DNA of 64,000 bases from Salinicola halimionae (lineage in GTDB: Bacteria; Pseudomonadota; Gammaproteobacteria; Pseudomonadales; Halomonadaceae): assembly GCF_003206065.1 (NCBI RefSeq), contig NZ_PZJQ01000005.1:650761-714760 (forward strand), given 5' to 3'. The translations under genes and the position numbers were made by a program. The notes below the pieces were generated by a model. It was not told where the DNA came from. It worked only from the letters and a program-made list of their open reading frames with translations, and did no database searches. This document shows positions 19,055 to 22,929 of the stretch, in pieces; the stretch's first letter is position 1; every line of letters starts with the position of its first letter.

Positions 19055-19630
19055 ATGACCGATCTGCGTTCCTCCCCCTTATCCCCCGTGCTTGGCCAGA
19101 GCGACGCTCAGGCGCTTGAGGCACTTGACGAAACGGCCCTCGAAAGTCTGCTCCTGAAGCGGGCCGAGGCCGCCTGGCAATTGGCACAGGACGTGCATCC
19201 TGATTTACCTCGGCCGAAGGTGTGGTTCGATCTGCGCGGTCGTAGTGCCGGGCAGGCGCATTACCAACGCGGCGGGCTGCGCTTCAACTGGACCCTGCTG
19301 CGAGAGAATCGTCAGGCTTTCATGGACGAGATCGTGCCCCATGAAATGGCCCATTGGTTGGTCTTCCACCTTGAGGGCGGGGCTCGGGCTCGACCCCATG
19401 GACGCGAGTGGCAAACGGTGATGCGAAAGCTCTATGGGCTGAAGCCGATCGTCACGCACCGCTTCGACGTCGCACGCGCCAGCCCCACTCCCTATCTTTA
19501 TCGCTGCCGCTGCGAGACGCTGCACCGGTTTACCGGACGGCGCCATTCTCAGGCCATGAAAGGATCCCGATATCGTTGCCGTTACTGCCGGGCGACCTTG
19601 ACGTTTGCCTATCGCGAAATATCCGAATAA
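19055..19630 (+). CDS. SprT-like zinc metalloprotease
   Basis: A 191-residue protein with the metalloprotease motif HEMAH at 96-100. A C-terminal zinc ribbon follows, with CRC in YLYRCRCETLH and CRYC in YRCRYCRATL. This is the SprT family, related to the protease core of Spartan; bacterial SprT roles are poorly defined. The ATG at 19055 is chosen because upstream codons add only a non-conserved arginine- and cysteine-containing stretch. No strong ribosome-binding site is visible. Divergent from the UPF0149 gene. Confidence 0.85.
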   Translation: MTDLRSSPLSPVLGQSDAQALEALDETALESLLLKRAEAAWQLAQDVHPDLPRPKVWFDLRGRSAGQAHYQRGGLRFNWTLLRENRQAFMDEIVPHEMAHWLVFHLEGGARARPHGREWQTVMRKLYGLKPIVTHRFDVARASPTPYLYRCRCETLHRFTGRRHSQAMKGSRYRCRYCRATLTFAYREISE

Positions 19631-19710
19631 CGTCCAATGACGCTTCGGGCGCGCGATCTGTCGATCATCGAGAACGTCGCTATCGATATCGTGGATCTCC
19701 GTGCGAACTG

Positions 19711-19750
19711 CCTTTGTCCTCGATTACTCAGGATCGAGTTGAGACGAAGG
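19711..19750 (+). other. Stem-loop in the sprT-acs gap
   Basis: CCTTTGTC-CTCGAT, an eight-base loop, then ATCGAG-TTGA-GACGAAGG form a two-part stem: six perfect inner pairs and an outer eight-base arm that includes one G-T-type pair. No T-run follows. It could end the sprT message or lie in the acs leader. The rest of the 270-base gap shows nothing I can name. Confidence 0.4.
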
Positions 19751-19900
19751 TCTAATAGGGGGTGTCGGGGGCCGTCGTTATATGCTGACCGACTGCAGTC
19801 GCAGGCCTATCGCATTGAGTCAGCTAGGCTTTCACGAACCGACGAATCATCGCCGACCGAATAGCGACGACCCGAATACGTCTTACAGGGAGACTGGAGC

Positions 19901-21853
19901 ATGAGCGAACAGCAGCGCGTATATCCCGTCGATGAACGCCTGGCAGCCAATGCCTGGATCGATCGCGATCGGTACGAGACGCTCTATCGCCAGTCCGTCG
20001 AAGACCCCGAAAACTTCTGGCGCGAACAGGCCGAGAGTCTGAGCTGGAGCAAGAAGCCAGCGACCATCAAGAACACGTCGTTCGCCTCCCGCAATGTCGA
20101 TATTCGCTGGTTCGAGGATGGCGAACTCAACGTTGCCCATAACTGTCTTGATCGTCATCTGGCCACACGGGGTGACCAGCCCGCTATCATCTGGGAAGGC
20201 GACGATCCCGATGATCACAAGATCATCACTTACCGCGAGTTGCACCAGCGGGTATCGCAACTTGCCAACGGTCTCAAATCCCTGGGGGTCGGTAAGGGAG
20301 ATACGGTAACGCTTTATATGCCGATGGTGCCGGAAGCGGCCATGGCAATGCTTGCCTGCGCGCGTATCGGCGCGGTGCACTCGGTCGTGTTCGGCGGGTT
20401 TTCCCCGGATGCGCTGGCCGGGCGTATCGTCGACTCGCAGTCTCGCGTCGTGATCACTGCCGATGAATCGGTTCGTGGTGGCAAGCAGGTGCCGCTCAAG
20501 GACAACGTCGATGCCGCGTTGACCCGAGAAGGCACCGACGTGGTTGAAACCGTGCTGGTGGTCAAACGCACCGGCGGCAGTATCGAATGGCACGAAGGCC
20601 GCGACCGATGGTTCGACGATGTGGTCGATGCGCAGTCCATCGATTGCCCCGCCGAGACCATGAACGCCGAGGATCCGTTGTTCATTCTTTACACCTCGGG
20701 CTCGACGGGCATGCCCAAAGGGTTGAAACACACATCCGGCGGGTATCTTCTTTACGCTGCCCTGACGCATCGCACGGTTTTCGATTATCACGATGGCGAA
20801 GTCTACTGGTGTGCTGCCGATGTGGGCTGGATTACCGGTCACAGCTACATCGTCTATGGCCCCTTGGCCAATGGCGCCACCACGCTGATGTTCGAAGGGG
20901 TGCCGACCTATCCGACCCATGGGCGCATTGGCCAGATCATCGACAAGCACGATGTCGCCATCCTCTACACCTCGCCCACGGCTATCCGCTCGCTGATGGC
21001 CCATGGCGAGCACATCATGGACGACAGCCAACGCTCGTCGTTGCGAATTCTTGGCTCCGTCGGTGAGCCCATCAATCCCGAGGCCTGGGACTGGTTCCAT
21101 CGGGTCGTTGGCAATTCGCGGTGCCCGATCGTGGACACTTGGTGGCAGACCGAAACCGGCGGACACATGATCACGCCGCTACCCGGGGCAACGGCGCTGA
21201 AGCCGGGTTGTGCGACTCAGCCCTTCTTTGGCGTGCAGCCGGCGCTACTCGACAATGACGGCAAGCCATTGGACGGCGCTAACGAAGGTAACCTGGTGAT
21301 TCTCGACTCCTGGCCCGGGCAGGCGCGCTCGATCTGGAACAATCACGAACGCTTCGTCCAGACCTACTTTTCGACTTACGAAGGGGTCTACTTTACTGGC
21401 GACGGTTGCCGGCGCGATGCCGACGGCGATTACTGGATTACCGGACGCATCGATGATGTCCTGAATGTCTCCGGGCATCGCATGGGTACGGCCGAGATCG
21501 AGTCCTCGCTGGTGGCGCATCAATCCGTAGCCGAAGCGGCCGTCGTGGGTTATCCGCATGACATTAAAGGGCAGGGCATTTACGTCTATGTGACCCTCAA
21601 TGACGATGTCGAATCCAGCGACGAGTTGAAGCAGGAACTCAAGCAATGGGTGCGCAAGGATATCGGTCCGATTGCCACGCCCGATGTGATTCAATGGGCG
21701 CCGGGGCTACCGAAGACCCGCTCGGGTAAAATCATGCGGCGCATTCTGCGCAAGATCGCCGCCGACGAGTGTGATGGTCTGGGTGACACGTCGACGCTGG
21801 CCGACCCCGGCGTTGTCGAAGATCTGATAGAGAACCGCCATTTGCGTCCTTGA
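19901..21853 (+). CDS. acs: Acetyl-CoA synthetase
   Basis: Activates acetate to acetyl-CoA with ATP and CoA through an acetyl-AMP intermediate. The 650-residue length is typical. Core motifs: P-loop-like [11 protein letters not shown], the adenylate motif [28 protein letters not shown], and the C-terminal [11 protein letters not shown] with Lys610, the lysine that is acetylated to switch off the enzyme in other bacteria. The ATG has GGGAGA upstream. The next gene is a regulator of the family known to control acs. Confidence 0.97.
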
Positions 21854-21916
21854 ATCAACGTTTCCGGTGCCCTGAATCCCATCAGTGGCCTAGAGCGGCG
21901 TAACAACTATATGACT

Positions 21917-21940
21917 GGTTAATGTAAATTATCATTAACC
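21917..21940. promoter_or_regulatory. Dyad operator upstream of the structured RNA element
   Basis: GGTTAATG at 21917-21924 and CATTAACC at 21933-21940 are perfect inverted halves with an eight-base AT spacer. A GATTAT -10-like hexamer follows at 21955-21960, so a bound factor would overlap the -35 position. A related half-site CGTTAACC occurs at 22175-22182, nearer erdR. The binding protein is unknown. Confidence 0.45.
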
Positions 21941-21961
21941 TTATTTTGACCGATGATTATC

Positions 21962-22060
21962 GTTCGGCCGTCTTGAAAGAGGCTTTCCTCCCGGTACTTT
22001 TTCGTGCCGCTCCAAAGGGAGGGAAGCACGCCAGCTTTCCGGGACGACCGAACTTTTTTT
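21962..22060 (+). ncRNA. Structured RNA element with alternative pairings, ended by a T7 tract
   Basis: The outer arm GTTCGGCCGTC (21962-21972) pairs with GACGACCGAAC (22043-22053, 10 of 11) and is followed at once by seven T. Inside it GCTTTCCTCCC (21982-21992) pairs over all 11 positions, one G-T, with GGGAGGGAAGC (22017-22027). A stacked GGTAC/GTGCC hairpin lies at 21993-22008. The GGGAAGC strand (22021-22027) can pair instead with a second GCTTTCC at 22034-22040. It may be a small RNA, the acs terminator, or a regulated leader of erdR. Confidence 0.55.
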
Positions 22061-22263
22061 ATGCTTAATCGGACTTTTTGTAGCTCCCAGTGCGGGTTTA
22101 TCCGTCAATTTTTACTGGATTTACGTACCGTTGACTTGAGGCTTGGGATTCCATGATCGCATGGGGTAACATGCCGTTAACCATTAGTTGAAGTAACTTA
22201 TCTGAATGGCGATAGTGGACCGACTAACTCGTCATCTATTCCGATAGCGCCGGAGGAGAATCA

Positions 22264-22929
22264 ATGGCTTTTGCCCAGAAATTCATCGTAGCTGATGACC
22301 ACCCACTCTTCCGGGCGGCCCTCAATCAGGCGCTGCGACAAGTCTCGCCACAAGCGGAGATCGTCGAGGCGGACAGCATGGAGGCAACGACGGAGGTCGT
22401 GACCCGACATCCCGATGCTGACTTGATTCTGCTCGATCTTCACATGCCGGGTGCTCACGGTTTCTCCGGACTGATCCAGCTCCGAGGGCAGATGCCGGAC
22501 ATCCCGGTGACCGTGGTGTCCGGAAGCGAAGAAGTCGATGTCGTTCGTCGTGCCATCGATTACGGCGCGTCGGGCTTCATCCCCAAGTCCGCTTCGCTGG
22601 ATACTATCGCCGAAGCGATCGGTGAGGTGCTCAAAGGGGAAGTCTGGCTGCCGCAATATCTTGCCGATGCCATGGGTGAGGGTAGTCCGGAGGATGCCCG
22701 TTTCGCGGAAGCGATCGCCTCGCTAACGCCACAGCAGTTTCGGGTCCTCAACATGTTGACGGAAGGACTGCTCAACAAGCAGATCGCCTACGAACTCAAC
22801 GTGTCGGAAGCGACAATCAAGGCCCACGTCACGGCCATACTGCGCAAGTTGGGGGTTCATTCCCGTACACAGGCGGTTATTGCCGCGCAGAAGTTGGAGA
22901 TCGAACCGCCCAAGGTGACCAACGACTGA
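22264..22929 (+). CDS. LuxR-family response regulator, ErdR/CrbR-like
   Basis: A 221-residue two-domain regulator. The receiver (about 7-125) has the acidic pair in VADDHP, the phosphorylatable Asp in LILLDLHMPG, and the conserved Ser/Lys positions. A LuxR helix-turn-helix (about 150-210) follows, with LTPQQFRVLNMLTEGLLNKQIA. The start has GGAGGA. The family includes P. aeruginosa ErdR and Vibrio/Pseudomonas CrbR, which activate acs in response to a CrbS/MxtR sensor. Adjacency to acs supports that role. No sensor kinase is encoded in the window. Confidence 0.85.
   Translation: MAFAQKFIVADDHPLFRAALNQALRQVSPQAEIVEADSMEATTEVVTRHPDADLILLDLHMPGAHGFSGLIQLRGQMPDIPVTVVSGSEEVDVVRRAIDYGASGFIPKSASLDTIAEAIGEVLKGEVWLPQYLADAMGEGSPEDARFAEAIASLTPQQFRVLNMLTEGLLNKQIAYELNVSEATIKAHVTAILRKLGVHSRTQAVIAAQKLEIEPPKVTND

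Follow-up and report, generated by a model that had tools for sequence, protein, structure and literature searches.

Sponge RNAs such as SroC counteract small RNAs (sRNAs) by base pairing. In Caulobacter, the sponge CrfA has been described together with the sibling sRNAs SisA-D in a paper that also names 3'ETS-leuZ and QrrX as sponges (PMC12559287). GlnZ comes from the 3' UTR of the nitrogen-assimilation gene glnA (PMC9731577), and SdhX, an sRNA from the 3' end of a TCA operon, represses ackA on acetate (PMC6393394). The ACTU motif is required for activation by CrbR (ErdR) (PMC5715377).

Here, we describe a locus that shares features with these systems. In the window, by which we mean the whole 64-kb stretch of DNA analysed, the gap between acs and an erdR-like gene contains a real and conserved element (the acs-erdR RNA, Table 1). 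Its conserved stretch complements an sRNA-like element encoded elsewhere in the genome, a relationship that lies beyond the reach of a reader of the window alone. We consider it probable, with some reserve, that this RNA, lying 3'-terminal in the acs transcription unit, pairs with a family-wide sRNA, most likely as its sponge. In this proposed action, counteracting an sRNA by base pairing, it is comparable to SroC, 3'ETS-leuZ and QrrX. As with CrfA and SisA-D (PMC12559287), a single RNA would, judged by its sequence, block a conserved interaction site common to sibling sRNAs, and a carbon-nutrition signal would stand behind it; CrfA, however, is alphaproteobacterial, whereas here the anti-seed lies at the acs 3' end, a copy of the sRNA lies in the amt 3' UTR, and the pair is predicted from sequence. 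The sRNA-like element resembles GlnZ (PMC9731577) in having a conserved seed inside a 3' UTR that belongs to a gene of nitrogen assimilation and in a putative carbon/nitrogen link, but differs in its host gene (amt), in its bacterial family and seed, and in having further copies elsewhere in many genera. Like SdhX, the acs-erdR RNA would be derived from a 3' end and touch acetate metabolism; whereas SdhX pairs with mRNAs (PMC6393394), the predicted partner of the acs-erdR RNA is another sRNA.

Table 1. Features of the acs-erdR locus and of the sRNA-like element; positions are those of the window unless a locus or contig is given.
Feature	Position	Strand	Evidence or remark
ACTU-like (CrbR/ErdR-type) motif GACGAAGGTC upstream of acs	19743..19752	+	short pattern, weak evidence
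acs, acetate--CoA ligase, 650 aa	19901..21853	+	ORF; NCBIfam TIGR02188, 1004.8 bits (cut-off 724.95)
structured RNA, proposed sponge, about 99 nt, with its own terminator-like end	21962..22060	+	fold, BLASTN, alignment, covariance model
outer stem, 5' arm and 3' arm	21962..21972, 22043..22053	+	10/11 pairs; 3 helix pairs changed on both sides (12 rows)
anti-seed GGGAAGCACGCCAGCT	22021..22036	+	strongest duplex site on either strand of the 64 kb
ACGCCA	22028..22033	+	left unpaired by either alternative fold of the window sequence; complements UGGCGU of the sRNA-like element
T-tract after outer stem, 7 T	22054..22060	+	probable intrinsic terminator, for either the acs transcript or the RNA
promoter-like TTGGGA-N18-TAACAT of erdR	22143..22172	+	hyperconserved; between RNA and erdR
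erdR (crbR)-like response regulator, 221 aa	22264..22929	+	best NCBIfam match NF041830 ErdR, 267.8 bits, under the cut-off of 390
sRNA-like element in amt 3' UTR	L199:1596-1679; own genome G000:C4:514007-514089	- (L199)	also rows of alignment A2

The region 21955-22070 folds with a minimum free energy (MFE) of -45.7 kcal/mol (z -3.85), a value that none of 200 dinucleotide shuffles equalled. Together with its conservation in Salinicola, this comparison bears out the structured RNA with a terminator-like end that an earlier sequence-only reading had proposed, and that reading had also placed the parts exactly, from the outer stem and the seven-T tract to the two GCTTTCC segments (21982-21988 and 22034-22040) and the GGGAAGC strand (22021-22027) that can pair with either. 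The mutually exclusive pairing exists, as RNAalifold and single-sequence folding pick different partners: RNAalifold pairs GGGAAGC with the 3' GCTTTCC, leaving ACGCCA in a hairpin loop, while in single-sequence ensembles the 5' side is dominant in 10 of the 12 Salinicola rows and the 3' partner in the remaining two (G055, G116). According to the same kind of ensemble prediction, the unpaired state prevails at every one of the six ACGCCA positions in 9 of 12 species; the motif is mostly paired in G107 and G027 and mixed in G043. The remark that the element matches no recognised RNA family holds for Rfam 15, which has no match in the 64-kb window at gathering scores, and a permissive scan of 21850-22270 returned one chance-level match only (E 4.8). 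A multicopy REP-like repeat was considered and rejected: elsewhere in the genome there are just 15- to 22-base matches, with E up to 10.

BLASTN located the RNA in 12 of 18 Salinicola genomes, in each case between acs and erdR, and a covariance model built from these 12 copies recovered the same genomes with E 2.7e-28 or better, the best E in the other six being 0.33. An additional 27-nt BLASTN match (G105) was discarded, its locus having neither acs nor erdR. On the 12-row alignment (A1), 95.3% of cells are paired under the MFE structure, and four pairs (six cells) show changes on both sides, compared to none or one such pair in slid structures. Compensatory changes in the stems across relatives, which the sequence-only reading had named as its own check, were thus found to some extent. 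The covariation score was reached by 0/500 shuffles, the pair count by 2/500 and the number of further pair types by 310/500, shuffle tests on related sequences being supportive only. In all 12 rows the stem is followed by six or more T. The best-conserved stretch of the RNA is GGGAAGCACGCCAGCU, and 21 of the 24 columns around the anti-seed motif are invariant in the genus. On inspection by eye, the gaps of four genus members lacking the RNA (L030-L033) show a different structured element that ends in a T-tract and comes after a distinct acs terminator; it bears no evident likeness to the RNA described here.

Judged by its anatomy, the amt-linked element is an sRNA family, comprising a covarying 5' hairpin, a 16-nt core and a terminator. 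Its host gene in the own genome encodes an ammonium transporter (TIGR03644), and the amt 3' UTR contains a 31-nt run invariant in 18/18 Salinicola. The marks of a 3'-UTR-derived sRNA are present, namely a conserved core, an intrinsic terminator after the stop codon and a structure under selection. A pattern search of 151 family genomes detected the exact 17-mer GAGCTGGCGTGCTCCCC in many genera and frequently in two copies per genome, among the matches listed, and at the loci read true copies continue after the core with a GC hairpin and then a T-tract. The genomic context of nine loci, taken from mechanical ORFs, put two copies after amt and seven elsewhere. At one locus (L219), the amt ORF enters the sRNA core, its stop codon being the TGA within GTGAGC.

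Pattern matches without a terminator (L231-L236, L252) were excluded from the 43 copies collected, of which 23, chosen for variety and with L267 dropped, were aligned (A2). In these 23 copies, selected by a pattern tolerating one mismatch, the 16-nt GTGAGCTGGCGTGCTC is invariant; all six pairs of the 5' hairpin have changed on both sides, with 0/500 shuffles as good on all five measures. In 29/43 copies the MFE fold makes UGGCGU the loop of a hairpin. The covariance model R2 matches 112 of the 151 family genomes, its training sequences among them, in 16 of 24 genera, with at least two matches in 53 of the 112 and one match in each of the 18 Salinicola. A further 40 R2 matches, chosen by score and mostly weak, all have a T-tract after the core, which is exact in 32; four variants differ at the first base only and four elsewhere (one at four places). 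Across the order (293 genomes), a core with no more than one mismatch is found in 10/12 family members and 7/281 others; by eye, all seven matches outside the family, as well as the family match in G050 (L252), are without a following hairpin and T-tract. A permissive Rfam scan of the amt locus (L199) gave nothing at the gathering threshold, and searches of the open-access literature on Halomonadaceae sRNAs showed, in titles and the starts of abstracts, no prior description. This candidate family-wide sRNA, whose 16-nt core is nearly invariant and which also has copies away from amt in many genera, is apparently undescribed.

We also searched five genomes for ribosome-binding sites facing the core, obtaining 89 matches versus 17 with the reversed pattern, a control that is without the SD-ATG context. 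Thirty candidate-target loci were read, including one HPF gene (TIGR00741), with whose ribosome-binding site the core could pair (L326, G000:C5:234247); a second candidate target is the ribosome-binding site of a short ORF recurring in three genomes (L321, G000:C4:718139).

The two RNAs are complementary in their most conserved parts. Within the own genome, GGRAGCRCGCCAGCT with at most one mismatch occurs at eight places, six of them inside open frames of more than 300 codons; the other two are the acs-erdR RNA, where the site overlaps no frame of 100 codons, and, in complementary orientation, the amt 3' UTR, where the one overlapping frame, of 229 codons, runs antisense to amt. AGCACGCCAGCT (22025-22036) is an exact 12-nt complement to the core of the amt element, so that, as in a sponge, the conserved pairing region of the sRNA is complemented over 12 contiguous nucleotides, and GGG at 22021-22023 lengthens this past one mismatch by three more pairs, to 15 of 16. 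The window site gives the best duplex of the 64 kb (-39.3 versus -35.4 for the next), and per species 0-5 of 200 shuffled partner RNAs did as well. The energies of this latter comparison leave intramolecular folding out of account and count in the GC-rich terminator and the U-tail. Two positions facing the core vary within Salinicola, A to G in 6/12 and C to T in 1/12, and both retain pairing by G-U. Outside the genus, the variants GTACGCCAG and GCATGCCAG likewise retain pairing, and an edge pair is broken by ACACGCCAG (L057/L059) and GCACGCCAC (L061).

The complementarity extends to other genera. We counted gaps of less than 600 nt at loci with acs upstream (141 of 169 loci, 108 of them distinct; L108 is without erdR in its stretch). 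At least 10 nt of exact core complement occur on the sense strand of 14 of the 108 distinct gaps, where shuffles predict 0.12, and on the antisense strand of none; exact GCACGCCAG is likewise found in 14 sense, 0 antisense and 0 reversed. These gaps are phylogenetically related and the counts are not independent, yet they spread over several genera. A looser pattern tolerating all G-U pairs is not discriminating (37 sense, 24 reversed, 2 antisense). Although BLASTN with the Salinicola RNA does not match the gaps of other genera, several of them hold GCACGCCAGC or a near form, namely those of Chromohalobacter, Onishia, Modicisalibacter, another Halomonadaceae genome and two Halomonas, and by eye the motif sits there in the acs 3' UTR, before the presumed acs terminator. 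The hairpin around it has 0-4 consecutive pairs in 11 other-genus rows versus 7 in four Salinicola rows, so it is the sequence, not the stem, that is conserved. Covariance model R1, run on 21 loci (other genera, RNA-less genus members and two other own-genome loci), gave five matches, the best at E 0.058 (L075) and three of them plain terminators; homology at the other-genus loci therefore rests on the motif and its place.

Taken over the 89 family-sample gaps read, the motif follows acs in 23 genomes, a count that omits L087, whose one-mismatch match is close to the start of erdR, and five loci with no acs upstream; 23/23 also have an R2 match, the base rate being 112/151. The sRNA occurs without an acs anti-seed in 6/18 Salinicola and in many other family genomes, so the partner is not obligatory. 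An extended anti-seed pattern retrieved, in each of eight genomes, the amt complement plus scattered one-mismatch matches.

A sense-strand scan upstream of the acs-erdR RNA found no promoter-like site. The pattern [TG]AC-N4-GTC, which we derived from the ACTU examples in PMC5715377, occurs twice in 19601-19910 (at 19743 and 19791) and is absent from the acs-erdR gap in 18/18 Salinicola genomes, both being weak evidence given the shortness of the pattern. An AT-rich terminator-like hairpin lies between acs and the RNA (21917-21940), the scan giving two such sites where 0.9 were expected. The simplest source of the RNA would be the acs transcript. Roughly 40-50 nt upstream of the RNA lies the conserved block AACTATATGACTAGTTAAT (21904-21923), a possible promoter or regulator site that in several relatives forms an AACTA-N6-TAGTT inverted repeat and in the window copy is slightly different.

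The sequence-only reading had offered the architecture as that of an attenuator or riboswitch, perhaps coupling acetate activation to erdR expression, or of a stand-alone small RNA. The latter option agrees with the structure, the terminator-like end and the compensatory changes. A switch controlling erdR would account for the two alternative pairings and for the same terminator-like end, but TTGGGA-N18-TAACAT, very probably the promoter of erdR to judge from its sequence and place, lies downstream of the RNA, and the pattern recurs in 18/18 genus gaps and 94/108 distinct family gaps. With the predicted promoter 3' of it, the RNA falls outside the leader of the predicted principal erdR transcript, and not between promoter and regulated gene as a riboswitch does, so transcripts made from that promoter could not be attenuated by it; the suggested coupling through an RNA switch loses its footing with this arrangement. 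Furthermore, the two alternative helices are not both conserved, as the 3' GCTTTCC is invariant in 12/12 rows whereas the 5' copy deviates in three (G055, G087, G116). The predicted unpaired state of ACGCCA in 9 of 12 species also speaks against a switch, as does the retention of erdR in the 6/18 relatives without the RNA, and we regard an attenuator or riboswitch of erdR as scarcely credible.

The remaining explanations turn on what the complementarity is for. The acs 3' UTR could itself be the regulatory target, with the sRNA changing, when nitrogen is limiting, the stability or the 3'-end processing of acs mRNA. This explanation draws on the same complementarity data as a sponge, from which sequence alone cannot separate it, on the position of the other-genus motif ahead of the presumed acs terminator, and on the fact that no promoter of its own was recognised for the RNA in a gap without an ACTU-like motif. 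The site is, however, distant from the acs start codon, and the compact, separately closed structure with a terminator in Salinicola resembles a stable RNA more than a mere site; we therefore hold acs as a target to be unlikely, though deserving some weight. It is somewhat less plausible that the element is an ordinary acs terminator or a free-standing sRNA in which the likeness to the core is unused for pairing and the ACGCCA hairpin has a protein or other mRNAs as its binding partners. The strong fold with its T-tract, the placement of ACGCCA in a hairpin loop by RNAalifold and the small enrichment of the G-U-tolerant pattern over its reversed control would all fit, but the exact anti-sequence recurs, on the sense strand only, in other-genus gaps that BLASTN did not match, and there the hairpin stem is poorly kept. 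A double-stranded DNA site for a common regulator at both loci, suggested by the inverted repeat GAGC-N6-GCTC, would be free of orientation; the core, by contrast, keeps a constant orientation to the terminator in the sRNA loci read and the opposite one in acs gaps, both loci are at transcript ends rather than promoters, and the 5' hairpin of the sRNA covaries as RNA, leaving such a site very improbable.

Under the sponge reading that we prefer, transcription of acs, possibly activated by ErdR/CrbR on acetate, would enter the RNA and stop at the T-tract. The RNA, either free or as the acs 3' UTR, would then contact the sRNA through an ACGCCA predicted to be unpaired in most species and the UGGCGU of the sRNA, and this loop contact could zip into a duplex of about 12-16 bp that hides the sRNA or lowers its stability. 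Strong expression of acs would thus lift the control of the sRNA over its targets, and acetate use would be coupled to nitrogen-linked regulation. From the sequences we infer the existence of the transcript, the pairing, a dependence on Hfq, the direction of regulation and the physiological effect. Whether the full picture applies, in which undescribed Halomonadaceae sibling sRNAs, one of them from the amt mRNA, are disarmed through a loop contact by the acs-end RNA in Salinicola and several other genera, forming a 3'-end-to-3'-end circuit that balances acetate use against nitrogen assimilation, is in our estimate evenly poised. An apparently undescribed sRNA family thereby gains a predicted partner at base-pair resolution and, if the proposal is true, carbon (acetate) and nitrogen (ammonium) regulation would be linked by RNA in these bacteria.
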